NCBI GenBank assembly: GCA_947474545.1
Contig: CANJJI010000004.1
Coordinates: 1 to 64,000 of the forward strand
Source of the DNA: Beijerinckiaceae bacterium
GTDB lineage: Bacteria > Pseudomonadota > Alphaproteobacteria > Rhizobiales > Beijerinckiaceae
Direction of reading: 5' to 3'
DNA: 64,000 nucleotides
Below the pieces are notes generated by a model that searched no databases, was not told where the DNA came from, and saw nothing but the letters and a program-made list of their open reading frames with translations. Within the stretch, counting starts at the first letter, position 1; the number at the start of each line of letters is the position of its first letter. This document shows, in pieces, positions 574 to 56,993 of this stretch. Both the position numbers and the translations under genes were made by a program.

Positions 574-3039
574 ATGACCTCTGATCGCGTCCATTTTTCT
601 GCGCCTCAGGAAATTTCGTCCGGGTGGAAGTGCGCGATACTGCAAGCTGATTTATGCCGGACGCCGGATGAGGCTATAAAATCAGGCGATTGGATTTCAG
701 CCAAGGCGCCCGGGACTACAGCGCAGGCATTGAGCGAAGCCGGGCTCTGGCCGCCTGACGATCCTTCGCCCTTGCATGATCAGGATGTCTGGTATGTCTG
801 CGATATAGTCACGCAGGTTCCTTCCAGATTGCGGTTGGAAGGGCTCGCAACTATTGCAGAAGTCTGGATTAATGGCCAGTTGGCAACTGAATCCATCAGC
901 ATGTTTTTGCCCGTTGATATCGAATTGAAGGATAGCGGAAGTATTCAAATAGCTATCTGCTTTCGGAGTCTGAAACGATATCTGGATCAAGTTAAAGGCA
1001 AGCGTGCGCGGTGGCGAACGGCTTTAGCCGACAACCAGTCATTGCGCTTTGTCCGAACGACTCTGCTTGGTCATATGCCCGGATGGTGTCCACAGATTGA
1101 TTGTGTTGGTCCGTATCGCACGATCAAGCTGTTTCCCGGGGGGGCTCTCAGCCGGGAGAGCTTTGATTTGTGGACCCATTATTCTCAAGATAAGGGTTTC
1201 CTGTCAGCGTCTTTTACATTTCCGGAAGATGTGGCCTTACCTGGGTTTGTAACTTTGCTATGCGCGGGTCGCTCCGTTGCCTTAGTCATGGATGGCCGTA
1301 AAGCTCATGGTTTATTGGAACTTGATAATGTTGAGCCGTGGTGGCCCCATACGCACGGAAAATCTATGCTCTATGAGGTTGCGGTCGATATTGAGGGTAA
1401 CATTCAACCATTGGGCGCGGCGGGCTTCAGATCGGTTGAAATTGATCACGGGGCAGATGAATCCCGCTTTGGCTTTGTGGTCAACGGCGTCAAGATATTT
1501 GCACGCGGCGTTTGCTGGACGCCGTGGGATCTTGCCAGTCTGCCCGGCGACAAATCAACCTATTATCAGGCCTTGCGGCTTATGCGTGATGCAGGATTTA
1601 ATATGGTCCGCATTCCCGGCATGACGCTTTATGAAAGCCCGGAGTTTTTTGAAGTTGCCGATGAGCTTGGCATCATGGTCTGGCAAGACCTGCAGTTTGC
1701 AAATTTCGATTACCCATTTTCCGACAAGGCATTTCACGCGGCCGCAGTAAAAGAGATCGAGAACTTTCTTTCCAACACCCGGCGTCATTGTTCGCTCGTC
1801 GCACTCTGCGGAGGCAGTGAGGTTGAGCAGCAGGCAGCGATGATGGGGTTGCCGTCAACGGTGCGCAAGGTTGAATTTTTAGAGGGTGAAGCTAAAGCAA
1901 TTTTGTTGCGAGACCGTCCAGATATTGTTTACGTCGAGAACTCGCCTTGGGGTGGTGACCTTCCGTTTTCCGTCAATCACGGGGTAGGACATTATTACGG
2001 GGTTGGCGCATATTTGCGGCCGCTCGAAGACGCACGCAGGGCGGATGTCAGTTTTGCAGCGGAATGCCTTGCTTTCTCAAATGTGCCAGATCCCGCAACC
2101 CTGCGGGCGCAGTTTAGCCCGCCGGTATTAGAAAGCTTGGGTTGGAAAGAGGGTGTTCCCCGCGACAGAGGCGCTTGCTGGGATTTTGAGGATGTCCGCG
2201 AGTTCTAAATGAATCTCCTTTACGGCGTCGATTGTGCGGTTTTGAAAGATATTGATCCGGCCCGTTATCTTGCTTTGGCTCGCGCCTGTATTGCTGAAGT
2301 TATGGAAACGGCATTTCATGAATGGCGGCGGCCTAAGTCCCGCACCGATGGAGCGCTGGTATTTCTCTGGAAGGATTTACGGGCGGGGGCGGGCTGGGGA
2401 ATTGTCGATCTTTCCGGACGTCCGAAGTCTGCCTGGTATGCCTTGCGCCGGGCTTGCCAGCCGGAGCAACTTTTATTGACAGACGAGGGTGTGAACGGAC
2501 TTCACCTGCACGTAGTCAATGAAACTCAAAGTGCACAAAACCTTTTTATTACCATGGAGTGTATGACGGAATCGGGCGATATAGTGGCTTCCGGCGAGGC
2601 GGGCTTGTCACTTGGAACACGGCAGTCGCGAACATTGACGGGAGCGGAATTGTTGGGCGCGTTTTTTGACGTGAACTATGCCTATAAGTTTGGAGCGCGG
2701 GCTCATGATATTGTCGTAGCCCGTCTAAACGATCGTCCAACATCCGAAAATATCAGCGAAGTTTATTTTTTTCCCGGCGGGCGGGGGAGCGTGCAGTATG
2801 ATAACGGTCTCAAAGTTGAGCTGCTAGAGCAGAACGATTCGTTTTCGCTCAATATTTCATGCAGACGCTTTGCGCAGACAGTTGCAATCGATGATGAGTA
2901 TTTTAGGCCGGCCGATAATTACTTTCATCTGGCGCCAGGCCGGGTCAGATGTATCAGACTCGAGCGGATCGGCGAAAACAGGTGCAGACCATCTGGAATC
3001 GTGAGCTCGCTCAACGGATTGGATGTTGCCCGTTACTAG
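574..3039 (+). pseudogene. Family 2 glycoside hydrolase (beta-mannosidase-like), interrupted by an in-frame stop
   Basis: Two open frames, 574-2208 (544 aa) and 2209-3039 (276 aa), lie in the same reading frame, separated only by one TAA at 2206-2208 that is immediately followed by ATG. Joined, they give about 821 residues, a normal GH2 length. The first part holds the sugar-binding-like beta domain and most of the TIM barrel. Candidate acid/base Glu lies in GGSEVEQQ and candidate nucleophile in FAAECLAF. The second part continues the barrel end (LVFLWKDLRAGAGWG, then GRPKSAWYALRRA) and a C-terminal beta domain. Homologues as I recall them read DVRDxY at the break, so a Tyr codon changed to TAA is the simplest cause. 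A sequencing error is the alternative. It follows the DUF1839 remnant by 20 bases. Confidence 0.75.
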
Positions 3040-11726: not shown

Positions 11727-12827
11727 TCACCGCCGCCCATTCGCCGCCTGGCCTTTCTCGATATAGTCGCGAAGAAATGTTCTGATCTGGGGCGGTGGGT
11801 TCATCGTACGCTTGAATATGTCTTCAGTATTCTTGTCTGTCACGTATTTGGGAATATATTGCATTGTCTTCTGAGCTTCGGCCTTGAAGTCAGAATCTTC
11901 CTGCATTCTTAAGAAGCCGTCCTTGAGAGCAGCCATTGCGTCGGGCGGTGAATCTTGCGGCAGATGAATTGTGCGTAAGAACAATGTCCCGACATTGTTG
12001 ACGACACGGAAGGCTTCCCACAATTCCCCACTGGGATATTCGCCTTTCACGCGCCTGTAGAAGGCCGGAAAATGCTCGGCTTCGATGCCTTGTGATTCCG
12101 GCGGCGTCGAAAACTCCTTGCCGTCGTCGTATGGATCATACCAGAGCGCGATGCCTTCTCCCGTCTTGATGATATTAGGCTCGATGGATGCCCTGTACGT
12201 AGGCATAGATTCTGCGGTCATGTGTACTTCACCACGCTGCAAGGCGAGGCGTGCTTCGGCGGAGCCACGGAATCCGGAAATGTATTTGTGGGGGATGCCG
12301 AGCATGTCGAGTTGCATGCGAATGCGGACGTCCTTGTCGGCCTCAGGCGTCAGGCCACCTGCCCAGAAGTCTCTGGCCTTCAAGATGTCCTCGGGCTTGT
12401 TGATGCCGGGTGGTACGTCCTTGCGGATATAGGCTACGCTGGTGCCGGGACCGCTGGCGATGAATCCGAGTTTCGTGACGTCGACCTTGATGCCGGGATC
12501 TCCCAGTGTTGTTTTTGATGCTGCGCCTGTGAAGAAACCGACGACAGTGCCATCGCGGGGTGCGGCCTGTCCCAGCCAGTTGAGCCCGACAATGCCCGCG
12601 CCTCCAGGCATATTTCGCGGCACGATAGTTGGTGCGCCGGGTAGGTATTTGACGATGTGACGGGCGGCGAGACGCGCTTCGAAATCGGTCGGGCCGCCCG
12701 GTGTGAAATTGATCAGAAAGGTGATTGTTTTGCCTTTGTAGAATTCATTGGGCTGGGCGTTAGAGCTGCCTGTGGCGGCCACCACAAGAGCCAAGACAGC
12801 AGCAAATGTCTTTATGTTTACACGCAC
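11727..12827 (-). CDS. Bug/TctC family tripartite tricarboxylate transporter substrate-binding protein
   Basis: A 366-residue periplasmic binding protein. The N-terminus is a Sec signal (about 22 residues ending SSNA, mature start QPNEFYKGK). The family block FYKGKTITFLINFTPGGPTD and the NMPGGAGIVGLNWL segment follow; these form the carboxylate-binding pocket in Bug proteins. GTG at 12827 with GGGAGA upstream is preferred to a further upstream ATG because it places the signal at the N-terminus. It is the last gene of the 21517-11727 minus-strand cluster, after the acyl-CoA dehydrogenase, with a palindromic element in the gap. No TctA or TctB membrane genes are present. Likely captures an aromatic or other carboxylate. 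Confidence 0.85.
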   Translation of the reverse strand: MRVNIKTFAAVLALVVAATGSSNAQPNEFYKGKTITFLINFTPGGPTDFEARLAARHIVKYLPGAPTIVPRNMPGGAGIVGLNWLGQAAPRDGTVVGFFTGAASKTTLGDPGIKVDVTKLGFIASGPGTSVAYIRKDVPPGINKPEDILKARDFWAGGLTPEADKDVRIRMQLDMLGIPHKYISGFRGSAEARLALQRGEVHMTAESMPTYRASIEPNIIKTGEGIALWYDPYDDGKEFSTPPESQGIEAEHFPAFYRRVKGEYPSGELWEAFRVVNNVGTLFLRTIHLPQDSPPDAMAALKDGFLRMQEDSDFKAEAQKTMQYIPKYVTDKNTEDIFKRTMNPPPQIRTFLRDYIEKGQAANGRR

Positions 12828-12884
12828 GGATTCTCTCCCTTGCCATACCTGGCGCCAAGAATGATGGGGGATCACAATAATGAT

Positions 12885-12924
12885 TGCGATCCCGGAAAAA
12901 TGCATCCGCATTTTCCGGGATGAC
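12885..12924. repeat. GTCATCCCGG palindromic element, half copy (A)
   Basis: A single hairpin with about 14 paired bases and a one-base bulge: ATCCCGGAAAAATGC pairs with GCATTTTCCGGGAT, and the right side continues as CCGGGATGAC minus its last bases changed. It matches one half of the longer elements at 36742, 45920, 62310 and 62925. It lies in the gap between two minus-strand cluster genes. Confidence 0.7.
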
Positions 12925-12931
12925 TATCCAT

Positions 12932-14089
12932 TTATTTCCCGTACGCATTCAGCACGTGCCGGGCGATAACCATTTTCATCACCTCTGTTGCACCTTCGGT
13001 GATGCGATAGCTGCGTTGCTGCCGCCACATCTTTTCTATCGGCAGGTCAGTCGTCAGGCCAATGCCGCCATGGATCTGCATGCACATATCGGCGGCCTTG
13101 AACGCCATTTCATCGGCAAAATATTTGCACATGTATGCCTCTGTGCGCGCCTGGTGACCTGCCTCGATCATGGATGCTGCGCGATAGACCAGCAGACGTG
13201 CAGCTTCCAGCTCGACATACATATCCGTGAGCATGAACTGGATCGCTTGCCGGTCGGACAGGGGCCTGCCGAAGGTTACACGTTGCTTGGCGTAGGTTGC
13301 CGCCAGTTCAAGACAGCGTTCGGCAACGCCGATGGCGCGGGCGCCATGATGGACGCGCCCGTGTCCCAGCCACTTCTGGGCGAATTTAAAGCCATCGCCT
13401 TCGCCGCCCACCATATTCTTTGCAGGCACACGGACATCTTCAAAAATGATTTCCCAGGGCTTGTCGCCCATCATCGTATTGTATTGTACGCCTAGCTTCA
13501 CACCAGGCGTATTCATATCGACGAGGAAGCAGGAAATTCCGCCCTTTGAGCCTTTTGCGCGATCGGTTGCGACCATAAGCTGAATATAATCGGCATCGCC
13601 TGCGCCGGTGATAAAGCGCTTGGTTCCATTGATGATATAATGGTCGCCGTCGCACGCAGCCACTGTTCGCATGGAGCCGGGATCAGAACCAGCGTCAGGC
13701 TCGGTTTGGCCGAAGCAGGCAATGCGTTCGCCGCGCAAAGTGGGCAGTAGATATTTTTCTTTCAACTCTCCGGTGAGATCGTAAAGATTGGAGCGCACAT
13801 GCGGGCCCATGATACCGTGCCCGCGCGCAGGAAGTGCAATGGTACGCGCGAATTCTTCCCATACGATGACGCTGGCCATCAGGTTCATGCCGAGGCCGCC
13901 GTATTCCTCCGGCACTTCCATCATCCAGAGGCCGAGTTCCTTGGTGCGGGCTTCGAATTTCTTGCGCCATTCGGGCTTCAGCTTTTCCCCGTCGCAGGTT
14001 TCGCGCTCGAACGGGATCATTTCATCGTTGACGAACCGGCGGAGCTGATCGCGCAGCATCCGCAGTTCTTCGGGCATTGTGAAGTCCAT
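12932..14089 (-). CDS. Acyl-CoA dehydrogenase family protein
   Basis: A 385-residue flavoprotein that introduces an alpha-beta double bond into an acyl-CoA, passing electrons to ETF. It shows the three-domain ACAD pattern: N-terminal helical domain, the FAD-contact block FGQTEPDAGSDPGS near residues 127-140, the GHGRVHHGARAIG helix, TFGRPLSDRQAIQF and the C-terminal ITEGATEV region that carries the catalytic Glu position. The length is normal. It follows the aldolase gene by 28 bases and precedes the Bug gene by 104, with RBS GAGGGAAC. In this setting it could oxidise a CoA-activated side chain or ring product, but the substrate is unassigned. Confidence 0.93.
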   Translation of the reverse strand: MDFTMPEELRMLRDQLRRFVNDEMIPFERETCDGEKLKPEWRKKFEARTKELGLWMMEVPEEYGGLGMNLMASVIVWEEFARTIALPARGHGIMGPHVRSNLYDLTGELKEKYLLPTLRGERIACFGQTEPDAGSDPGSMRTVAACDGDHYIINGTKRFITGAGDADYIQLMVATDRAKGSKGGISCFLVDMNTPGVKLGVQYNTMMGDKPWEIIFEDVRVPAKNMVGGEGDGFKFAQKWLGHGRVHHGARAIGVAERCLELAATYAKQRVTFGRPLSDRQAIQFMLTDMYVELEAARLLVYRAASMIEAGHQARTEAYMCKYFADEMAFKAADMCMQIHGGIGLTTDLPIEKMWRQQRSYRITEGATEVMKMVIARHVLNAYGK

Positions 14090-14117: not shown

Positions 14118-14864
14118 CTATTCTGTTAGCGAAACGTAGTAACGCCAGAGCGCCGCATCGCGGCCTGCAGGCGGCGCGCCCGGTTTGCCGGGTTTGGGGT
14201 TGAGATCGCCACGCATGAAGAAGTCCTGCTCGTCTTGCGGAATAGGCTGAGGATCGCCCAGCAACTGCGCCTGATAGTTCACTTCCGCCAGATTGGTGAG
14301 GTGGATGGCGGTGAGAGCCGCTTCCTCGACATTCACGCCGGCTGTCGAAACGCCGTGGCCACGCATCATGCAGCAATCGGATTTCCCCATGGCTGCGGCC
14401 AATTCATCGCCACGTTCTGGTGTGTCGCAGAGAATGCTGCGCGGGTAGGTCGGAATGCCTTTGAACGCCAGTTTTGCGCTGGAGGGATCATAGGCTCCAT
14501 AGAGCGGTAAAAGCGGCTTGCGGCAGATGGTGAACAGCACGACCGGCAGCGGATGAACATGTACGACGGCCTGAACTTCGGGCCGGGCCTTATAAAGCGC
14601 GGTATGGATGAAGACTTCGAGGGGCGCCTCGAGGCCCTGATCGTTAACATGAACCAATTTGCCATCGAGTCCCACCTCCACGACTTGTTCGGTGGTAGTG
14701 AAACGCACGCCCAGTTCACCCGGTCCGCGTGCGCGAATGAAAACACGATCCGTGCCCGGCAAACGGGCGCTTGCATGTCCCGTCGCTCCTTTGGCCAGAC
14801 CCAGTGCGCCGAGTACGCGGCAGGCCTGCGCGACGCGGGCGCGCAATTCGTCGATCTCACTCAT
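14118..14864 (-). CDS. Class II aldolase/adducin family protein
   Basis: A 248-residue zinc-dependent class II aldolase fold. A Gly-rich GATGHASARLPG block near residues 25-36 binds the acidic group in relatives; zinc ligands are probably His101 and His103 (HVHPLP) and a later His in RGHGVSTAG. The fold covers sugar-phosphate aldolases, ribulose-5-phosphate epimerases and, as I recall, decarboxylases such as 3,4-dihydroxyphthalate decarboxylase. In a Rieske oxygenase cluster, a decarboxylase or C-C lyase acting on a hydroxylated acid is the more attractive reading. It lies 36 bases after the Rieske gene, with AGGAGG before the start. Confidence 0.87.
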   Translation of the reverse strand: MSEIDELRARVAQACRVLGALGLAKGATGHASARLPGTDRVFIRARGPGELGVRFTTTEQVVEVGLDGKLVHVNDQGLEAPLEVFIHTALYKARPEVQAVVHVHPLPVVLFTICRKPLLPLYGAYDPSSAKLAFKGIPTYPRSILCDTPERGDELAAAMGKSDCCMMRGHGVSTAGVNVEEAALTAIHLTNLAEVNYQAQLLGDPQPIPQDEQDFFMRGDLNPKPGKPGAPPAGRDAALWRYYVSLTE

Positions 14865-14900: not shown

Positions 14901-16106
14901 TTATTTCGCAGCCGCCAGTTCTTCTGCGAACTGCGCCTGCCCTTGTGAATAGGTGAAGCGGATGATCTCGTTCACCTTGGGATCGCGGACCACACCGTCG
15001 GGTTCGCCGCCTTCCTGCACCTTGCGAATCTGTTGGCGCAGGAGATCGCGATACATCACGACGCCTCTGTCGCTGGCGCCCAGCAGCTCCGTTGTGCGGT
15101 CGGCAATAGAGCCCTGCGTCTCCCAGGCCATTTGGTCCTGATAGACGAAGTTATGCAGTTCGTATTCGCCATCGGGCTGCAGCGGGTGGGTCATGATATC
15201 GAGCGGAATATCCTCATCCTTCTGGTCAACAATCGAGCCATCGTCCGTGCGAAGGAACTCCACCCAATAGATTGCCGTGTGGGTATCGTCGATGGGCACG
15301 CGGAAATGGATGGTCAGATATTTGGCCTGAGGCGCAATCAGAATGTTCGGGAAAATGGCGGGATGGCCATGTTCCTTTTCTGGCCTGTCGCCGCCATAAG
15401 TGCGCACTTTACGAATTCCGGTCCAGGATTGTTCGCGGCATAACTCGAAATCAATGCCCTCAATGGGACGGCCGAAATAGGCTAGGTCCGGCGCCCATTT
15501 CTTGGCCTCTTCTGGTGGCCGCTTCTTCAATGCGCGTTCGAAGAGTTTGGCATGCAGCCAGAAAGTGTGCGTGGGATCGTGTGAGTTCTCCTGCGCCTGC
15601 AACCAGTTGTTGTTGTGAACCGGGAGAATGACATTGGTCCGAGTGCCGTCCTTGCGAATAAGCAGCTCCCAATTAGGCAGCAGGGGGACCGGATCCGGGC
15701 CGAGATAGGCGAAGACCAGTCCGGCCAATTGCTGCACCGGATAGGAACGAAGCTTTGCCTGTTTCATCAGAGGGGAATTAGGGCGCTCATACGGCTGTTC
15801 GATGCAATTTCCATTCACATCGAATTTCCAGCCATGATAAGGGCAGCGTAACCCATCTTCCTCGCAAAAGCCGAAGTAAAGTGAGACGTGGCGGTGTGGG
15901 CAGCGCTCCGGGATCAGGCCCAGTTTGCCCTTGCCATCGCGAAACAACACGAGATTTTCGCCCATGATGCGGACGCGTTTGACCGGCTTGTCGTCAGTCA
16001 ATTCCTTGACTGCCGCAACAGGCATCCAGTAGCGCCGCAGAAGTTCGCCGCACGGCGTACCGGGGCCAACCTGGGTAAACAGGGCATTGTCATCCGCACT
16101 GAGCAT
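14901..16106 (-). CDS. Rieske [2Fe-2S] aromatic ring-hydroxylating oxygenase, phthalate 4,5-dioxygenase type
   Basis: A 401-residue oxygenase and clear paralogue of the one at 7024. Rieske ligands are Cys69, His71, Cys88 and His91, exactly the same numbering; the iron site is Asp177, His180 and His185. The C-terminal region is shorter by about 40 residues. The reaction is probably hydroxylation or O-demethylation of an aromatic acid with electrons from a reductase encoded elsewhere. GGAGGAACAC precedes ATG at 16106. It sits between the FMN/[3Fe-4S] protein gene (105 bases away) and the aldolase gene (36 bases), as part of a single-direction cluster. Substrate unknown. Confidence 0.9.
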   Translation of the reverse strand: MLSADDNALFTQVGPGTPCGELLRRYWMPVAAVKELTDDKPVKRVRIMGENLVLFRDGKGKLGLIPERCPHRHVSLYFGFCEEDGLRCPYHGWKFDVNGNCIEQPYERPNSPLMKQAKLRSYPVQQLAGLVFAYLGPDPVPLLPNWELLIRKDGTRTNVILPVHNNNWLQAQENSHDPTHTFWLHAKLFERALKKRPPEEAKKWAPDLAYFGRPIEGIDFELCREQSWTGIRKVRTYGGDRPEKEHGHPAIFPNILIAPQAKYLTIHFRVPIDDTHTAIYWVEFLRTDDGSIVDQKDEDIPLDIMTHPLQPDGEYELHNFVYQDQMAWETQGSIADRTTELLGASDRGVVMYRDLLRQQIRKVQEGGEPDGVVRDPKVNEIIRFTYSQGQAQFAEELAAAK

Positions 16107-16211: not shown

Positions 16212-17648
16212 TCATTCTGCCCCGGAGTTGCGGAATCCTGCTACGCCACGTTCAACTGCTGTCACGTGGCGGAGTGCGAATTCTTCCGGACCCGCGACGC
16301 CGCAGGAATGGGCAATCATCTCAACATCTTCACGCATCCGCTTGGCGTAATGCATCACACGGACGGATTTGTCGGTGGGATCGAGCCCTTTGATAAGTTT
16401 GGGATCAGAGGCGGTGACGCCTGTCGGGCAATTGCCGCTGCCGCATTTCATGGCCTGGATGCAGCCCAGGGAAAACGTGAAGCCACGTGCGCTGACGACA
16501 AAGTCCGCGCCGGTGCAGAGCGCCCAGGCGACCTTATCAGGGGTCACCAATTTGCCTGCGGCGACAATGCGGATGCGTTTGGTCAGCGCATGCTGTTCGC
16601 GCGCCGCGACCACCATTGGCAGCGCCATCGTAATCGGCAAACCCATGCATTCGGCCAGCGCTTCGGGCGCTGCGCCTGTCCCCCCCTCGCCGCCGTCTAC
16701 GTGGACATAATCCGGACAGCCCTCAGGATGTTGCAGGCAATCGGTGAACCATTCGTCCAGATGCTGAGCATCTCCAACAACGAACTTGACGCCAACTGGC
16801 TTGCCAGTGATGCGACGTACGCGAGCTATAAATTCACCTAACTCGCGAATACTTCCGATGTCCCTGTGCCTATTGGGGCTTATCGACGCTTGCCCTTCTG
16901 GAATGTTGCGGATACCGGCTATTTCCTTTGTAACTTTGATCGCGGGCAGTACGCCGCCCTTACCGGGCTTTGCGCCTTGCGCAAGTTTGACCTCAATCAT
17001 TCGGACATTCTCATGGGCAGCGATTGTGCGAAGTCTTTCTTCGCTGAGCCCGCCGTTTTCATCACATACGCCGTATTTCGCGGTTCCGATCTGAAACACG
17101 ATGTCTGCGCCGCCTTCAAGGTGGAAGGGCGACAATCCGCCTTCGCCGGTGCCCATCCATACGCCCGCCATCTTTGCGCCACGCGACAGCGCGGAAACGG
17201 CGGCATGGCTCAAGGCGCCGTAACTCATGCCCGAAATATTGAAAAAGCTTTGCGCTATATAAGGTCTTGCGCAGGCGCCCGGTCCCTCGATCACGCCGAT
17301 CTGCAATCCGGCAAAAGGTTTGCGATCTTCTTCCAGCACCGGAAAGGCGGCGTTTCTGAAAGCAAAACTCGGCGTCGCCTCACTGCCGAAACTGATGTAG
17401 TTCGAAACATTTTTTGAGGAGCGGTAAATCCAGGAGCGTTCCAGGCGATTGAACGGGCGTTCTTCCCAATCCGGCAAATACTGGTATTGCCGCATATATT
17501 CGCCCCATGTCTCCGCAAAATAGCGGAAATGTCCGAGGACCGGGTAATTGCGCAGAATGGTGTGCTGGGTCTGGTTGATGTCGTGAACATAGATGGCGGC
17601 AATGGCAGCAATCACGGCAAGTGTTGCAATTATGAGAAACGTCAGCAT
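16212..17648 (-). CDS. FMN-binding glutamate synthase family protein, membrane-anchored
   Basis: A 478-residue protein matching only the FMN and iron-sulfur half of the glutamate synthase large subunit. A transmembrane segment occupies residues 3-22. The TIM barrel holds the HVDGGEGGTGAAP phosphate-binding loop near 316-328, and three cysteines at 396, 402 and 407 form the expected [3Fe-4S] site. The glutamine amidotransferase domain is absent, so it cannot work as a standard GOGAT alone. Such stand-alone proteins are common in bacteria and have no settled role. Here it lies 88 bases after the FAD hydroxylase and 105 before the Rieske oxygenase, all on the minus strand. Involvement in electron transfer or a ring redox step is speculation. 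Confidence 0.88.
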   Translation of the reverse strand: MLTFLIIATLAVIAAIAAIYVHDINQTQHTILRNYPVLGHFRYFAETWGEYMRQYQYLPDWEERPFNRLERSWIYRSSKNVSNYISFGSEATPSFAFRNAAFPVLEEDRKPFAGLQIGVIEGPGACARPYIAQSFFNISGMSYGALSHAAVSALSRGAKMAGVWMGTGEGGLSPFHLEGGADIVFQIGTAKYGVCDENGGLSEERLRTIAAHENVRMIEVKLAQGAKPGKGGVLPAIKVTKEIAGIRNIPEGQASISPNRHRDIGSIRELGEFIARVRRITGKPVGVKFVVGDAQHLDEWFTDCLQHPEGCPDYVHVDGGEGGTGAAPEALAECMGLPITMALPMVVAAREQHALTKRIRIVAAGKLVTPDKVAWALCTGADFVVSARGFTFSLGCIQAMKCGSGNCPTGVTASDPKLIKGLDPTDKSVRVMHYAKRMREDVEMIAHSCGVAGPEEFALRHVTAVERGVAGFRNSGAE

Positions 17649-17736: not shown

Positions 17737-19386
17737 TCACACAGCGGATATCCGGGTTTCGCTTGAGCCAATTTCAGAATGTCCGCAAATACGCGCGACA
17801 ATCGCTTTGGCCGAAAGCTCTGCAAATTCTCCTCGCCAGGCAATATGTTGATCTGGCCGTATGAGAACCAATGGTGCGCTGTAAAGTTCATGCAATCGCG
17901 GGTCTTGTGGCGCGATAGTGCGCAGCGGCGCTTTGATATCTGCAAAAGCTTGTTGTAACGCGCTTATGAATTCATCATCGGGATCATCGCCAATAACCAG
18001 CAGAGTGAAGCCAAGTCCAAAATGATCGTAAAGAGAAGACCCATCGGCGAGCCAGAGATGGGGAGCAAGGCATCCGGGATGAGCCGAGGGGATGTATGTG
18101 GTCGAGAGCGGCGGCGGCTTCGTCCCATCTGGCGCGACAAGCGGCGAACCTGAATAATTGACGCCGAGTACTATGCCCAGAGTGTGGAATTCTGCGGCTT
18201 TTGCTTTGAGAATGTTTTCACCCATTCGCTGCCGGACGAATTCGCCTTCGGAGGAATTTTCTTCTAGCTTGTCATGCAGAAGGTGCTGGCTTTGAACAGC
18301 GAGATTGCTGACAGCCTCGTTCATCACGACATCATGGACGGGGCGGCGCTCCTGTTCGTAGGACGTCAGCAATCCCGCTCCGCCCCAACCTTGCAACACT
18401 GCAGCCAGCTTCCAGCCGATATCGACAGCGTCCGAGATGCCCATGTTCATGCCGTAACCGCCAAAGGGCGGATGTACATGACAGGCATCACCTGCCAGAA
18501 AAATGCGTCCGCCGCCATAGCTCTCTGCGCTCGCGCGGCTTGCTGTCCAGTAGTCGGCGGCGATGATTTCGGCTTCGACGGGACGTCCCACGGCCGCTTC
18601 CAGCCTATTGAAGATCTCGGGCCTGGTGAGTTCCTCTTCGCCTGGCCGAAGCACGGTCATGAAAGCCCAGAGATCGCCGGTATCCATTTGCCCGAGGGCT
18701 CCCGGGCTTTCGGGGTTCACGATCCAGTAGATGAACGCTTCACGTTCCGGTTTCGATTGTCCGAGTTGCGGGCATTTGATGATGACGTTGAGGAAATTGC
18801 CGAGATCGCGTTCGCCATTCATGGCAATGCCAAGTGCGCGCCGGACGGTGCTGCCGGGTCCGTCGGCCCCTATCACATAGTCAACGGATAACGTCTCAGC
18901 GGCGCCGGTAGCTCCATTTCTGATTTGCACCTTTACATCATCGACAGATTGATGAACGTCAGTGACCTCTGCGTTGAGCCGAATGACGACATTTGGCAGG
19001 GTGGTGAGCTTTTCGCGAAGGACAGCCTCGACCTTGTATTGCGGGATCCATTGCGCATGTTCGCTAAAGCGTTCATCGCGTTTTTTCGCGGTGAAGAATG
19101 CATTTTCAAAACAGGCAAGTTCGTAGCCGAACAACCTGGTCTTGAAGAGGATATCGGGAGGGCAGTCTGCGGCAAGCGGCGCCATCTCGCGCAGCCGGCT
19201 TGCAATGCCCCACCGGCGCATATGTTCGACAGTGCGCACATGCGTAGTTTTGGCGCGCGGGTGCCAGCCCGCGCGCTCCTGTTTTTCAAGGACTAATACA
19301 CTTATGCCGCGCAAGCCTAGTTCCAGCGCAGCGGCGAGACCCACAGGCCCTGCCCCAACGATGATAACCTGGGCATCGCGGGGCAT
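17737..19386 (-). CDS. FAD-dependent aromatic monooxygenase (TfdB/PheA-like)
   Basis: A 549-residue flavoprotein hydroxylase. The dinucleotide motif GAGPVG is at residues 11-16, the DG motif ADGPGS near 165 and the GD motif GDACHVHPPFGG near 290. The last 150 residues are the thioredoxin-like domain typical of phenol hydroxylase relatives. It inserts one oxygen atom into a phenolic ring using NAD(P)H. I trimmed a longer open frame to ATG at 19386, where FAD-binding begins directly, which leaves a four-base gap to the stop of the MetE-like gene. That spacing means translational coupling. A paralogue lies at 31225 and shares the C-terminal IRPDQ motif. Confidence 0.9.
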   Translation of the reverse strand: MPRDAQVIIVGAGPVGLAAALELGLRGISVLVLEKQERAGWHPRAKTTHVRTVEHMRRWGIASRLREMAPLAADCPPDILFKTRLFGYELACFENAFFTAKKRDERFSEHAQWIPQYKVEAVLREKLTTLPNVVIRLNAEVTDVHQSVDDVKVQIRNGATGAAETLSVDYVIGADGPGSTVRRALGIAMNGERDLGNFLNVIIKCPQLGQSKPEREAFIYWIVNPESPGALGQMDTGDLWAFMTVLRPGEEELTRPEIFNRLEAAVGRPVEAEIIAADYWTASRASAESYGGGRIFLAGDACHVHPPFGGYGMNMGISDAVDIGWKLAAVLQGWGGAGLLTSYEQERRPVHDVVMNEAVSNLAVQSQHLLHDKLEENSSEGEFVRQRMGENILKAKAAEFHTLGIVLGVNYSGSPLVAPDGTKPPPLSTTYIPSAHPGCLAPHLWLADGSSLYDHFGLGFTLLVIGDDPDDEFISALQQAFADIKAPLRTIAPQDPRLHELYSAPLVLIRPDQHIAWRGEFAELSAKAIVARICGHSEIGSSETRISAV

Positions 19387-19390
19387 GGGG

Positions 19391-20548
19391 CTACTTGGCC
19401 CAGAGCTTCTTTGATGCGATGGCGGCGCCTTCCGACATGGCCTTGAATTTTTCCCACATGACCTTGGGATTGACTTCCGGTTTGTAGGTTGCCTGAGACG
19501 AGAAGCCACAATCAGCGCCCGCGATCACGTTTTCACGGCCGCACAGATTTGCGAAACGTGTTAGCCGTTCGGCGACCAGTTCGGGATGTTCGATGATATT
19601 GCTGGCATGGGTGATGACGCCGGGGATGATGATCTGCCCGGGCTGCAATTTGACAGTCTCGAAAACATGATACTCGTGTTCGTGACGCACGTTACCTGCC
19701 TCGAATGAGAACGCCTGCGCGTTGATTTTAAGCATGTGTGGAATGACTTCCATCAGCGAAGCTTCGTGCAGACGCGGACCGTCGTTGATGCCGTAACAGG
19801 TATGAAAGCGAACCTTTTCTGCAGGAATGCCGCGCAAGGCATGATTGATCGATTCAACATACATGCCCGCTTTGCGCGCAAGCATCTTTGCATCGTCCCT
19901 GTAATCATAGACAATGTCGGACAGGAATGGGTCGTCCACTTGCAAAAGGAAGCCAGCATCAACAATCGCCTTGTATTCGGTGCGCATGGCTTCACCGAGC
20001 GCTTCAAAGAATTCTTCCTCGGTTTTATAATATTCGTTTTGTGCGACGCCGCTTGGCGCTGTAGACGGCACAAAGGCCTCTTCATATTTCAGGCCCGTCA
20101 GCGCGCTCTTGAGATTTTCAAGATCGCGTTTAAGAATCTCCTCGCCTTTATACTTCACTGCCCCTGTGCAGAACGCGGGCACGAAGGGCGCAACAGAGCC
20201 GCCGAGCATAGCGCGCTGAAAATAGTCCGCGTAATACTCAGGAAATGCGTCAACTTCCTTGGCAAACAGGCGCAACTTGCGTTCAGGCTTGCCTTCGATG
20301 CCGGTGAGACGTTCCTGAATGTAAGAGAAGAAGCCTGGTTTTGAAGTTTCACCGTCTGCGGGGATATCAACGCCGACCTCGATCTGTTTGCGGACGATTT
20401 CAGCAGTTGCGCTTTTCAGGCGGGCGTCATATTTCCCTTTGTCATAGTCGCGGCCCGAAAGTTTTTCACGCATCATATCGAGGAGATCATGGGGCCGCGG
20501 CAACGAGCCAGCGTGTGTGACGAGTATTCTGTTCGTGCTGTGCTTCAT
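19391..20548 (-). CDS. Cobalamin-independent methionine synthase II family protein (MetE C-domain-like)
   Basis: A 385-residue stand-alone relative of the catalytic half of MetE. The zinc-site residues align well: His249 and Cys251 (FHTCYG), Glu283 (SFEAGN) and Cys347 (ADCGFSS). It begins LVTHAGSLPRP. Full MetE is about 750 residues and has an N-terminal tetrahydrofolate domain, which is missing. Relatives of this short class include zinc-thiolate alkyl transferases, so methyl or alkyl transfer to or from a thiol is likely, while the methyl donor is unknown. It is coupled to the FAD hydroxylase gene (four-base gap), and AAGGAGGAG precedes the start. A paralogue of identical length is at 55409. 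Confidence 0.87.
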   Translation of the reverse strand: MKHSTNRILVTHAGSLPRPHDLLDMMREKLSGRDYDKGKYDARLKSATAEIVRKQIEVGVDIPADGETSKPGFFSYIQERLTGIEGKPERKLRLFAKEVDAFPEYYADYFQRAMLGGSVAPFVPAFCTGAVKYKGEEILKRDLENLKSALTGLKYEEAFVPSTAPSGVAQNEYYKTEEEFFEALGEAMRTEYKAIVDAGFLLQVDDPFLSDIVYDYRDDAKMLARKAGMYVESINHALRGIPAEKVRFHTCYGINDGPRLHEASLMEVIPHMLKINAQAFSFEAGNVRHEHEYHVFETVKLQPGQIIIPGVITHASNIIEHPELVAERLTRFANLCGRENVIAGADCGFSSQATYKPEVNPKVMWEKFKAMSEGAAIASKKLWAK

Positions 20549-20573
20549 TGTGCGTCTCCTCCTTGTTCACCGA

Positions 20574-20722: not shown

Positions 20723-21517
20723 TCACACCGGGTTCGTTGTCGTTCCCTTGAACGCGAGATAGCCGCCGTCCAGCAAGAGATCCGTACCTGTCATAAACGC
20801 CGATTCATCGCTTGAAAGAAAAATCGCTCCTGCGGCGATTTCTTCGGTCTTTCCGGTTCTCCCGACGAGATAGGCGGGGCCCTTGGCGGCATTGGCTTCC
20901 TCGCGGCTTTTGAAGCGCTGCATGGCGGCGCGCAGCGTATCTATCGCTCCGGGCGAAATGGAATTGGCGCGGATGTTGTCCTTGCCGAAATCGATGGCGA
21001 GACATTTGGTGAGCTGCAGCACTGCACCCTTGGACGAACAATAGGCGGGACGTCTGGGCATTCCGATGTGGCCGTGTGACGATGCAATATTTACGATTGT
21101 GCCGCCGCCTGCGCGGCGCATTTCGCCAACCGCATATTTGCACATGAGGAACATGCCGGTGAGATTGACGTCGAATGCAGAGCGCCAGTTTTCCAGCGAC
21201 AGTTCTTCGACTGTACCGAGCGGAGTGGCTGCAGCCGCGACATTGGCCAGCGTGGTCAGTTTCCCGAAGGCGTCCACGGCGGATTTGACAACGTGTTCGC
21301 ACTGGGCAGGGTTGGTGACGTCGAGGGCTGTCGCTGTGGCGCGGCCACCGCCGGTCTTGATGTCATCGGCTACAGCTTGCGCCTTTTCCAAACTGATGTC
21401 GGCAACAAGAACTTCTGCTCCCTCTGCAGCGTATCGGCGGGCGATAGCGCTGCCGATTTCTCCCCCACCGCCGGTGACTATTGCAACGCGTCCTTCGAGT
21501 AAAAACGGTCTGGCCAT
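20723..21517 (-). CDS. SDR family oxidoreductase
   Basis: A 264-residue short-chain dehydrogenase. The cofactor motif TGGGGEIG starts near residue 16, the catalytic Ser is in NIASSHGH and Tyr-Lys in YCSSKGA. The final GGYLAFKG segment is the usual closing strand. The acidic residue after the second strand (ADIS) suggests NAD rather than NADP. It is the most upstream gene of the minus-strand cluster that runs to 11727, separated from the MetE-like gene by 174 bases, so it may have a separate promoter. RBS is GGGGGGA. Probably a dehydrogenation step on a ring diol or alcohol product. Confidence 0.88.
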   Translation of the reverse strand: MARPFLLEGRVAIVTGGGGEIGSAIARRYAAEGAEVLVADISLEKAQAVADDIKTGGGRATATALDVTNPAQCEHVVKSAVDAFGKLTTLANVAAAATPLGTVEELSLENWRSAFDVNLTGMFLMCKYAVGEMRRAGGGTIVNIASSHGHIGMPRRPAYCSSKGAVLQLTKCLAIDFGKDNIRANSISPGAIDTLRAAMQRFKSREEANAAKGPAYLVGRTGKTEEIAAGAIFLSSDESAFMTGTDLLLDGGYLAFKGTTTNPV

Positions 21518-31224: not shown

Positions 31225-32883
31225 CTATTTTCCAGAAATCTTTGCGATCAGGGCTTCTGCTTCAGTATTTCCTGTTGTCCCGCGCCAGGCGACAACCTGA
31301 TCGGGACGTATCAATGCGAGATCCGCCTCATAGAGGTCGCGCAGGTTTTTGTCTTTTATAGTGGTGATCTGAAGGGGCATTCCCGCAGCTTTCGCGGCGC
31401 TAACCAAATTGTCTATGCCGTCAGTGGTTTCGCCCATCTGAAGTAGCGTCCAGTCGAACCCAAATTTATCGTAAAGAGAGGTTCCATCCGCAAACCACAT
31501 GTGGGGCGCGCGGCCGCCGGGGCAGGCCGTGGGATGGTAAATGTTTGGGCCGTCGGGTGGGGGCTTTGTGCCATCGCTTGCAATGATCTCACAGCCGTCG
31601 TAGCGCGCGCCCAGCGTGAAGCCTGGGATGTTGAACTCTGCCCGGGCGTGTTTGTTGTAATATTCGCCTGCGATATGGCGGGCTTCCTCGCCTTTCGGGG
31701 TCGCCTGTTCAAGTTCGGGCACAGCGACGAAATTACCCAGGGAATCTGCAAACGCCCGCGCATAACCGGTGTTGCGAACGGCGACGGCGCGCCTCTCCGT
31801 GTCGTAGGATTGCAGCAAGCTTTCGCCGCCGTAGCCTTGCAGGACCGCGCTCAATTTCCAGGCAAGATTTACAGCATCTTCAATGGCCGTGTTGTAGCCC
31901 ATGCCGCCGGCGGGCGTGAATAGATGCGCGGCATCGCCACCAATGAAAGCGTTGCCCTGGCGCATCCTTTCCGCAACAAGCGTATATCCTGCGGTCCAGG
32001 AGACGCGGGACAGGATTTCGATCGGCAATTCTTTCCCCCATCCGGTGAAAACCTGACGTTTAGCTTCCGCTTCATCAATGAGATCTTCATCCTGGCCGGG
32101 CTTCAGCTGGAAGTGAAAGGAAAACTCCTCCTTGCCGTCGATGGCTGTCATGAACGCACGTTGTTCAGCATTCACAGTCACGTTCATCCAGGCCGGCGAA
32201 TTTGGCATTTGCGCATAATAGCTTGGGCATTTGAGATAGATCGCATACATGCGCCCACCCATGAATTCGCGCTGGCGGCCACTTTCCCCGGCATAGGACA
32301 CCCCCATCTGCTTGCGTACGAGCGAGCGTCCGCCATCTGCGCCAACGATGAATTTGGCGCGCGTGATTGTTTGCGGGCCGCCGTTCAATGGTTCGGTCAC
32401 GCAGTCCACATGCGTTCCAAAATCGGTGAATCCAACAAAACGCGTTTCAAAATGGATTTCGTTGGTTGGATATTTGCGGGCGTGTTTCAGCAGCACCTGC
32501 TCGACATATTTTTGCGAGACGCGATGAGGCAATTCTGCCGCGCTCCAGGCGCCCGAAAGGCCCTTGATGATTTCTTTGGCATCCTTGGCGGTGGGCAGGC
32601 TGAAGCGGGCCAGTTCGTATTTTGAAATCCGTGTAAAATAGGCGATGTCGGGCGGATAATCGGGCGGCATGCCCATGGCGCGAATTTCGTCGGCAAAGCC
32701 GTGGCGACGGTAATGCTCCATGGACCGGGCTTGGGTCGCATTGGCCTGCGGATTGAAGGCAGTCGTTGATTTGGTGTCGACCAATGTGGCGGCGACGCCT
32801 CTGCGGCCAAACTCATTTGCCATCATCAGCCCGCACGGGCCGCAGCCAACGATGAAAACGTCTGTTTCGCGCGGTATGCTCAT
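31225..32883 (-). CDS. FAD-dependent aromatic monooxygenase (TfdB/PheA-like)
   Basis: A 552-residue paralogue of the enzyme at 17737. FAD motif GCGPCG at residues 11-16, DG motif VGADGGRSLVRK near 169 and GD motif GGDAAHLFTPAGG near 300 are intact, and the C-terminal thioredoxin-like domain has the shared LIRPDQ motif. It probably hydroxylates a phenolic ring with NAD(P)H and oxygen. Its nearest same-strand neighbours are the CYTH-CHAD gene upstream (69 bases) and the exporter operon downstream (157 bases). An export link is possible but not shown. Unlike its paralogue it has no MetE-like partner beside it. Confidence 0.9.
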   Translation of the reverse strand: MSIPRETDVFIVGCGPCGLMMANEFGRRGVAATLVDTKSTTAFNPQANATQARSMEHYRRHGFADEIRAMGMPPDYPPDIAYFTRISKYELARFSLPTAKDAKEIIKGLSGAWSAAELPHRVSQKYVEQVLLKHARKYPTNEIHFETRFVGFTDFGTHVDCVTEPLNGGPQTITRAKFIVGADGGRSLVRKQMGVSYAGESGRQREFMGGRMYAIYLKCPSYYAQMPNSPAWMNVTVNAEQRAFMTAIDGKEEFSFHFQLKPGQDEDLIDEAEAKRQVFTGWGKELPIEILSRVSWTAGYTLVAERMRQGNAFIGGDAAHLFTPAGGMGYNTAIEDAVNLAWKLSAVLQGYGGESLLQSYDTERRAVAVRNTGYARAFADSLGNFVAVPELEQATPKGEEARHIAGEYYNKHARAEFNIPGFTLGARYDGCEIIASDGTKPPPDGPNIYHPTACPGGRAPHMWFADGTSLYDKFGFDWTLLQMGETTDGIDNLVSAAKAAGMPLQITTIKDKNLRDLYEADLALIRPDQVVAWRGTTGNTEAEALIAKISGK

Positions 32884-55408: not shown

Positions 55409-56566
55409 TCACCCCCACAGCTGCTTGCTCGCAATCCTCGCGCCCTCCGCAAGGCTTTTCAACTTGGCGGTGACGACAGTGGGGTGCACTTCCGGCACAT
55501 CACGCGGCGTGGACGCAAAACCGCAGTCGGTTGAGGCAATGACGCGCTCCTTGCCGACGACACCGGCGAATTTGCAGATCCGTTCGGCGATGAGTTCGGG
55601 ATGTTCCACCAGCACGGAGGCATGGGTGATCATGCCCGGCAGCAGCGCCTTTTCTGCAGGCAGTTTTGCGTCTGCCCAGATTTTCCATTCATGCTCATGG
55701 CGCGGGTTGGCGAATTCGAACGAATAATAATTCGCGTTGATGCCGAGGATGATGTCCGTGAGGTGCTTCATCTCCATGTCGTGGGTGCGCGGGCCCATGT
55801 TGATGCCGTAACATGTATGATGGCGGACCCGTTCAGCGGGAATGTTGCGGATGGAATGATTCATCGCTTCGACGCGCTGCCACGCCCATTTGCGCGCCTG
55901 TTCCAGTGTCATTTCGGGATTGAGCATGTAGTGCATGGCAAGGCGGGGATCGTCGAGCTGCACGGAAAAGCCCGCTGCAACTATGGCCTCGTATTCAACG
56001 CGCATGGTTTCGGCGCAGGCTTCCAGAAACTCATCCTCGGTCTTGTAGAATTCGTTGACGACAGCCCCTTCCACAGTGCCAACGGAAGCGGCGGGAATGA
56101 AGACATCGGTAAAATTTCGCCCGGCAATGGCGCTTTTCAGATTATCAAGATCGGCTTTGAGAATATCCATGCCCGTATAGGACAACGCGCCGGTGCAGCG
56201 CGATCCTGCCGGCTGGGTGCCGGAATGTCCGGCTGCATAAAATTCCGGAAAGGCATCGATTTCCTTGGTGTGTGCGCGGCCCTTTGCGCCGGGCGGGCGC
56301 GCCTCGACGCCGCCAACGCGCTCTTTCACATAAGCGAAAAAGCCGGTCTTGGATTGCTCGCCATCGCTGATGATATCAATGCCGCAATCGGCCTGATAGG
56401 CGACGCATTCGCTGACGGTCTTGCGCACTGTATCCGCATAGAGCTTTGAATCAACCGGACGGCCGTCCATCCGCGCGACCATGAGTTCACTCAAGGCGGG
56501 CGGTCTTGGCAGTGAGCCGACATGGGTTGTGAGAATCCGCTTTGTGCGTTCGGCCGCAAGTGTCAT
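55409..56566 (-). CDS. Cobalamin-independent methionine synthase II family protein (MetE C-domain-like)
   Basis: A 385-residue paralogue of the protein at 19391, of identical length. The zinc-site residues are kept: HHTCYG, SFEFANPRHEHEW with Glu, and the C-terminal Cys in STDCGFAS. It begins LTTHVGSLPRPP. No N-terminal MetE half, so it is likely a zinc-thiolate methyl- or alkyl-transferase with an unknown donor. I used ATG at 56566 rather than an upstream start. It is divergent from a DOPA-dioxygenase-like gene; unlike its paralogue it is not coupled to an FAD hydroxylase. Confidence 0.87.
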   Translation of the reverse strand: MTLAAERTKRILTTHVGSLPRPPALSELMVARMDGRPVDSKLYADTVRKTVSECVAYQADCGIDIISDGEQSKTGFFAYVKERVGGVEARPPGAKGRAHTKEIDAFPEFYAAGHSGTQPAGSRCTGALSYTGMDILKADLDNLKSAIAGRNFTDVFIPAASVGTVEGAVVNEFYKTEDEFLEACAETMRVEYEAIVAAGFSVQLDDPRLAMHYMLNPEMTLEQARKWAWQRVEAMNHSIRNIPAERVRHHTCYGINMGPRTHDMEMKHLTDIILGINANYYSFEFANPRHEHEWKIWADAKLPAEKALLPGMITHASVLVEHPELIAERICKFAGVVGKERVIASTDCGFASTPRDVPEVHPTVVTAKLKSLAEGARIASKQLWG

Positions 56567-56657
56567 GGCGTTTCCTGAAAGTTGTTTGTTGCTTCTATAA
56601 GAGAATTGGCATGAAATCGGCTTCAACGGCAAGCGCCTGCCAAACCGGAAATAGCCC

Positions 56658-56993
56658 ATGTCAGCAGAAGAATTTCCCGCCTTTCATGCCCACGTCTATT
56701 TCGATGCTGCGAGCGTGGAAAAAGCGCGCGATATCTGTACACGATGCAGCGAAAAATTTGGCATCCGCATGGGGCGCATGCACGAGCGGCCCGTCGGCCC
56801 ACATCCCGATTTCAGCTGTCAGCTGACTGTGCCCGCTGAGAAAGTGGGCGAGGTCCTGACGTGGCTGGCCTTTCATCGTGATGGGCTTGTTGTGTTTTCG
56901 CACCCCAACACGGCTGATGCGCTGACCGATCATCGTGATCGCGCAATCTGGATGGGAGCGGTCAGGCCGCTGGATTTGGGGGCGCTGGGGTAA
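56658..56993 (+). CDS. DOPA 4,5-dioxygenase family protein
   Basis: A 111-residue single-domain protein. It has HAHVYFD (His10, His12), HPDFSCQLTV and SHPNTADALTDH, the histidine pattern of the DOPA 4,5-dioxygenase (extradiol) family. Such proteins cleave a catechol ring or are related catalysts of uncertain role. The size is normal for bacterial members. It is divergent from the MetE-like gene, with a 91-base gap. A ring-cleavage step would fit the oxygenase set in this window but this is inference. Confidence 0.87.
   Translation: MSAEEFPAFHAHVYFDAASVEKARDICTRCSEKFGIRMGRMHERPVGPHPDFSCQLTVPAEKVGEVLTWLAFHRDGLVVFSHPNTADALTDHRDRAIWMGAVRPLDLGALG

Follow-up and report, generated by a model that had tools for sequence, protein, structure and literature searches.

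The gene termed MetE1, which lies on the minus strand of the 64,000-nucleotide stretch of Beijerinckiaceae DNA analysed here (the window), is firmly predicted from its sequence to belong to an aromatic catabolic operon and to encode a MetE-type zinc methyl/alkyltransferase that works without folate. We propose, with a rough probability of 0.38, that this enzyme serves aromatic (probably methoxy-aromatic) catabolism, with homocysteine as the likely methyl acceptor, rather than bulk methionine synthesis. The evidence for this reading comprises the fold, the zinc and homocysteine sites, the lost folate residues, the operon, the multi-copy family and a complete MetH elsewhere in the genome. The relevant features of the window, all on the minus strand, are:

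11727-12911, minus strand: probable TctC-like substrate-binding protein (SBP), read from the sequence with no Pfam match; closes the conserved gene set
12932-14089, minus strand: acyl-CoA dehydrogenase (ACAD) family protein, same operon as MetE1
14118-14864, minus strand: class II aldolase/decarboxylase; the nearest NCBIfam model, 3,4-dihydroxyphthalate decarboxylase, is matched below its cut-off (184 vs 200)
14901-16106, minus strand: Rieske oxygenase with a LigXa-type C-terminus, same operon as MetE1
16212-17648, minus strand: FMN-binding glutamate-synthase-like (GltS-like) protein (PF01645), same operon as MetE1
17737-19386, minus strand: FAD-dependent aromatic ring hydroxylase, 549 aa (PF01494 and PF21274)
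19387-19390, minus strand: four-base intergenic gap (CCCC) between MetE1 and the hydroxylase
19391-20548, minus strand: MetE1, 385 aa, predicted core MetE-like zinc methyl/alkyltransferase (PF01717)
20549-20566, minus strand: likely Shine-Dalgarno region of MetE1 (AAGGAGGAGACGCACA-ATG)
20723-21517, minus strand: SDR dehydrogenase, upstream of MetE1 across a 174-bp gap
55409-56659, minus strand: second MetE1-clade paralog, 48% identical to MetE1, with all zinc and homocysteine residues kept

The sole Pfam match in MetE1 is PF01717, which corresponds to the catalytic half of MetE, and a Pfam domain search did not find the folate-binding N-terminal domain of the latter. In a multiple alignment (MAFFT) H249, C251, E283 and C347 of MetE1 match the zinc ligands H641, C643, E665 and C726 of E. 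coli MetE, while S15, E67 and D205 match its homocysteine contacts Ser433, Glu484 and Asp599. Given the conservation of these contact residues, homocysteine is the likely acceptor. The pterin of MetE is stacked on Trp539 and held by Glu583 in the T. maritima numbering (PMC539065). These residues are Trp561 and Glu605 in E. coli, and the alignment places Gln170 of MetE1 at the former and a gap at the latter. Thus, both structural statements of the earlier note, that the protein keeps the four zinc ligands and that it lacks the folate half of MetE, are borne out, the second also by the missing pterin Trp/Glu pair. After the zinc-ligand glutamate, members of the MetE1 clade display the signature N286-x-R-H289-E-H291, in which N286, H289 and H291 are invariant across the clade. 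An AlphaFold2 model predicts with confidence a single TIM barrel (pLDDT 92), whose best fold matches in the PDB are MetE (1xdj; TM 0.75) and MesD (3rpd; TM 0.72-0.81), with TM values of merely 0.41-0.44 against MetH and MmuM. An ordinary folate-dependent methionine synthase would share the PF01717 domain, and one-carbon folate genes do occur close to the sphingomonad relatives described below; however, the lack of an N-terminal barrel and of the pterin Trp/Glu, a score of 27.6 bits against the NCBIfam MetE model TIGR01371 (cut-off 929.95) and the presence of a full MetH elsewhere leave this option strongly disfavoured and barely credible.

A profile search of the host genome (4.80 Mb, 96% complete) recovered a full-length MetH (1742 bits) and 23 MetE-like genes, and no full-length MetE exceeded the TIGR01371 cut-off. 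In a maximum-likelihood tree that also included MetE, MesD and sphingomonad sequences, these 23 split into 13 YxjG-like members, one MetE/MesD-like member and nine in the MetE1 clade (100/99). Given the full MetH, the lack of a full-length MetE and the distribution of 23 MetE-like genes over three clades, MetE1 does not serve as the housekeeping methionine synthase. All MetE-like rows of the alignment retain the zinc ligands, and nearly all retain the homocysteine residues. Counted per genome, with some genes giving two matches, PF01717 is matched up to 28 times in members of the genus and 0-3 times in the remaining families of the order; the set of core MetE-like genes itself has grown to some 20 or more in several of these members. 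An 82% identical relative of the second window paralog occurs in another member of the genus (G003, L052), where it is followed by an overlapping gene for a 121-aa protein. Another YxjG-clade gene, on host contig C98, is found 56 bp downstream of that for formate-tetrahydrofolate ligase (L065:2309-3979(-) and 1137-2300(-)).

MetE1 might still be a core methionine synthase that draws on a general donor, whether a methyl-corrinoid protein or, as in the MesD/MesX pair, a partner that depends on oxygen, in which case its adjacency to the hydroxylase would reflect operon sharing and not a common substrate. Core synthases using non-folate donors are established (PMC7857596; core-MetE, PMC7005905), the zinc and homocysteine residues of MetE1 are identical to those of MetE and MesD, a Rhodococcus member of its clade adjoins metE, and the coupling with the hydroxylase is confined to three close species. 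On the other hand, with MetH present in the same genome, nine genes of this clade and 23 MetE-like genes overall far exceed any need for methionine, and MetE1 groups apart from MesD in the tree. A search of the host genome for MesX (PF08908) returned no match, as did the control genomes. We regard this alternative as possible but on balance rather unlikely.

The hydroxylase belongs to the NCBIfam PRK06126 subfamily (NF004780; 559.9 bits versus a cut-off of 445), and its closest solved structure, by sequence, is RebC. Its mechanical open reading frame begins at a GTG within MetE1, and the FAD domain opens at the ATG at 19386. With that ATG taken as the start in place of the GTG, the gap to MetE1 is exactly four bases (TAG-CCCC-ATG), in agreement with what had been claimed earlier. 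In G019 the corresponding genes stand 5 bp apart, and in G003 about 16 bp on the assumption of a GTG start. The further claim that the two genes are translationally coupled holds for the spacing; coupling itself is read from that spacing, the junction displaying neither an overlap nor a clear Shine-Dalgarno sequence beside the hydroxylase ATG. The order MetE1, hydroxylase, GltS-like protein, Rieske, aldolase, ACAD and SBP is the same in three close species of the genus, with per-protein identities to the window of 82-97% in G019 and 72-92% in G003. Since this seven-gene order is kept in three species while the hydroxylase has diverged to as little as 72% identity, its adjacency to MetE1 here is not a matter of chance. 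The SDR gene is also found upstream of the MetE1 ortholog in G019 and in the locus L121. Elsewhere in the window, a second FAD hydroxylase of the PRK06126 subfamily (31225-32883(-), 668 bits) adjoins MacA/MacB-like export genes. Another region of the window (574-3039(+)) contains two same-frame reading frames, 574-2208 and 2209-3039, matching the N- and C-terminal parts of mannosidase-like glycosyl hydrolases; they are divided solely by a stop codon followed by an ATG and are possibly one interrupted gene.

The MetE superfamily also includes the zinc alkyltransferase epoxyalkane:coenzyme M transferase (EaCoMT), and the presence of two oxygenases and an SDR around MetE1 is reminiscent of an epoxide pathway. 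By analogy, the zinc thiolate of MetE1 could attack an electrophile generated by the operon oxygenases, such as an epoxide, arene oxide, quinone or quinone methide, to form a C-S bond. That clade members elsewhere adjoin genes for 2-oxoglutarate oxygenases fits with such a role, but the retention of the residues holding the amino and carboxyl groups of homocysteine points to an amino-acid thiol rather than coenzyme M, and we consider this activity distinctly improbable.

Direct coupling of MetE1 with the hydroxylase, within the seven-gene set, is seen only in the host, G019 and G003. In two further genomes (G021 and G023) the MetE1 ortholog (59-61% identity) sits with branched-chain-type ABC importer genes, and a hydroxylase of 46-47% identity lies about 6 kb off. 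About 40 orthologs from other bacteria (56-67%) have different and widely varying neighbors, mostly without a nearby FAD hydroxylase: within 1.5 kb we found TctC in 9 cases, branched-chain-type binding proteins in 7, luciferase-like monooxygenases in 6 and FAD_binding_3 in 2, with AMP-ligases and SDRs also occurring. A survey from the side of the hydroxylase recovered pairing with MetE-like genes in the same three species only; its homologs of 46-59% identity in G014, G030 and G024 do not adjoin such genes. In a genus-wide survey FAD_binding_3 fell outside the 25 commonest families among the immediate neighbors of MetE1-clade members. Plasmids of Dietzia and Rhodococcus carry a MetE1-clade gene that overlaps one for a 2-oxoglutarate oxygenase (L075:9001-13350, L149:5998-10360), and a phytanoyl-CoA dioxygenase/HD-domain pair reminiscent of PhnY/PhnZ is encoded nearby.

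A general enrichment of oxygenases near MetE-like genes, which a first look at the neighbors had suggested, was rejected, there being no excess over random regions. In a Pfam tally from the same genome Rieske proteins occurred within 3.5 kb of MetE-like genes in 3/128 cases versus 3/146 in random regions, and in the host genome TctC was commoner in the random set than beside MetE-like genes. As random regions of this genome also contain Rieske and luciferase-like genes, catabolic neighbors alone say little. FAD_binding_3 accounts for 3 of the 41 immediate neighbors of host MetE-like genes (on contigs C4, C5 and C13) versus about 0.24 expected (p ~0.0016), a post hoc figure that assumes about 4,700 genes and becomes p ~0.02 when the initial finding is dropped. 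The hydroxylase link is narrower than the earlier note proposed: its recurrence largely fails for the MetE1 pair, which is coupled in three close species, separated by about 6 kb in two and almost absent from the ~40 orthologs, and holds for the wider MetE-like group, in the 3/41 neighbors and in the pairing of an other-clade paralog with pobA in 15 genomes.

The diversity of ortholog neighbors, namely TctC and branched-chain-type binding proteins, luciferase-like monooxygenases, AMP-ligases and SDRs, together with the cupin, RraA, hydrolase and sugar-type transporter genes beside other clade members, could also mean that the pairing is incidental to aromatics, with MetE1 demethylating or dealkylating a non-aromatic imported compound and the hydroxylase belonging to another pathway in the operon. 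Against this the seven-gene set is held together in three species, and the two best-conserved contexts of the family, pobA and LigM/MetF, are both aromatic, making it an unlikely explanation. These two wider links, the pobA pairing and the LigM/MetF clusters, are what keep the aromatic reading alive.

The first of them involves a YxjG-clade MetE-like paralog on host contig C5 that adjoins, on the same strand, the 4-hydroxybenzoate 3-hydroxylase gene pobA (L057:7330-9682(-); relatives in L265-L281). Of the 17 genomes of the genus whose pobA reaches 60% identity or more, 15 have a YxjG-clade gene no more than 2 kb away and on the same strand; the intervening distance is below 150 bp in six, about 0.95 kb in one and 1.7-1.8 kb in eight. 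In L278, which was read at the level of the locus, two CoA-transferase-like genes fill the 1.7-1.8 kb space. A MetE-like neighbor was absent from the three loci checked that encode more distant PobA homologs (52-54%). Some of the pobA/YxjG-clade loci also have branched-chain-type ABC importer genes upstream. We found no paper that assigns the MetE1 clade or describes the pairing with pobA.

The second link comes from within the MetE1 clade, where the host paralog on contig C79 (L071:7428-8546) groups with sphingomonad proteins at 100/100. In all six sphingomonad genomes examined (loci L150, L151, L154, L155, L159 and L160, with G385 and G304 counted as sphingomonads by sequence closeness) a clade member lies within 10 kb of a LigM-type aminomethyltransferase (O-demethylase) and MetF, with PurU or FolD nearby. 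In Sphingobium SYK-6, ligM-metF-ligH constitutes an O-demethylation/C1 operon (PMC6888825). C79-type genes of the genus have an NTF2-like gene directly upstream in 12 of 13 loci, usually with a 1-base overlap. The host C79 locus also encodes, about 4.6 kb away, a Rieske protein 58% identical to that of the window.

In light of these contextual connections, we infer that MetE1 acts as a methyltransferase within the aromatic operon, and the LigXa-type Rieske protein, the pobA pairing and the LigM/MetF clusters make a methoxy-aromatic donor the reading best supported by context. The zinc ion, held in a single TIM barrel, would activate a thiol, most likely that of homocysteine, for attack on the alkylated donor, and MetE1 would thereby demethylate a methylated (methoxy-) aromatic compound, either the substrate or an intermediate, directly or via some carrier. 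Both oxygenases of the operon, the FAD hydroxylase and the Rieske protein, could then oxidize the freed phenol. Our literature search found no precedent for a zinc thiolate that cleaves aryl methyl ethers with neither folate nor cobalamin taking part. It also counts against the proposed role of MetE1 that the Rieske protein of the operon could itself be an O-demethylase, releasing formaldehyde.

A broader and more doubtful possibility is that MetE1, together with the related proteins encoded near pobA and LigM, represents a class of zinc methyltransferases needing neither folate nor cobalamin, which demethylate aryl methyl ethers or other methylated compounds of catabolism and pass the methyl group directly to homocysteine. 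Such a class, expanded beyond 20 copies within a single genus of Alphaproteobacteria, might be for aerobes what the MttB/corrinoid methyltransferases are for anaerobes. Annotation as "cobalamin-independent methionine synthase II family" is widespread among single-barrel MetE-like proteins and leaves the donor unassigned; the pobA pairing and LigM/MetF clusters point to concrete candidate donors. If correct, this would add a third aerobic bacterial route for methoxy removal, besides oxygenases and LigM, in which the methyl group goes back to methionine, with relevance for lignin conversion.

Of the known systems most like MetE1, MetE (TIGR01371; 1xdj) has in common with it the C-terminal TIM barrel, zinc ligands and homocysteine contacts; however, MetE1 has neither the N-terminal barrel nor the pterin Trp/Glu, is about half as long (385 aa vs ~750) and is only ~17% identical. 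The core synthases MesA-D (MesD, 3rpd; PMC7857596) resemble it as single-barrel, folate-independent enzymes with the same zinc and homocysteine residues. MesD, in contrast, groups with MetE and the host paralog on C148, whereas MetE1 falls in another clade, bears the N-x-R-H-E-H signature that MesD lacks and is encoded in a catabolic operon. MesA/B/C are linked to the methyl-corrinoid proteins of methanogenesis or the Wood-Ljungdahl pathway, and the occurrence of MetE1 in aerobic-type catabolic operons argues against its membership in these families. The YxjG-like "vitamin-B12 independent methionine synthase" proteins (PRK06233/PRK06520; Listeria 1ypx) share the single barrel, similar length and zinc site, but form their own clade (100/100), which includes the paralog adjoining pobA. 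EaCoMT, compared by description and not by sequence, is alike in catalyzing zinc-thiolate alkyl transfer beside oxygenases and differs in using coenzyme M as its thiol. The partner of MetE1 is itself a member of the RebC/PRK06126-type FAD hydroxylases. Finally, the LigM/DesA aryl O-demethylases carry out the overall step proposed for MetE1, the transfer of a methyl group from an aryl methyl ether to an acceptor without cobalamin, but belong to an unrelated family and use tetrahydrofolate as the methyl acceptor.
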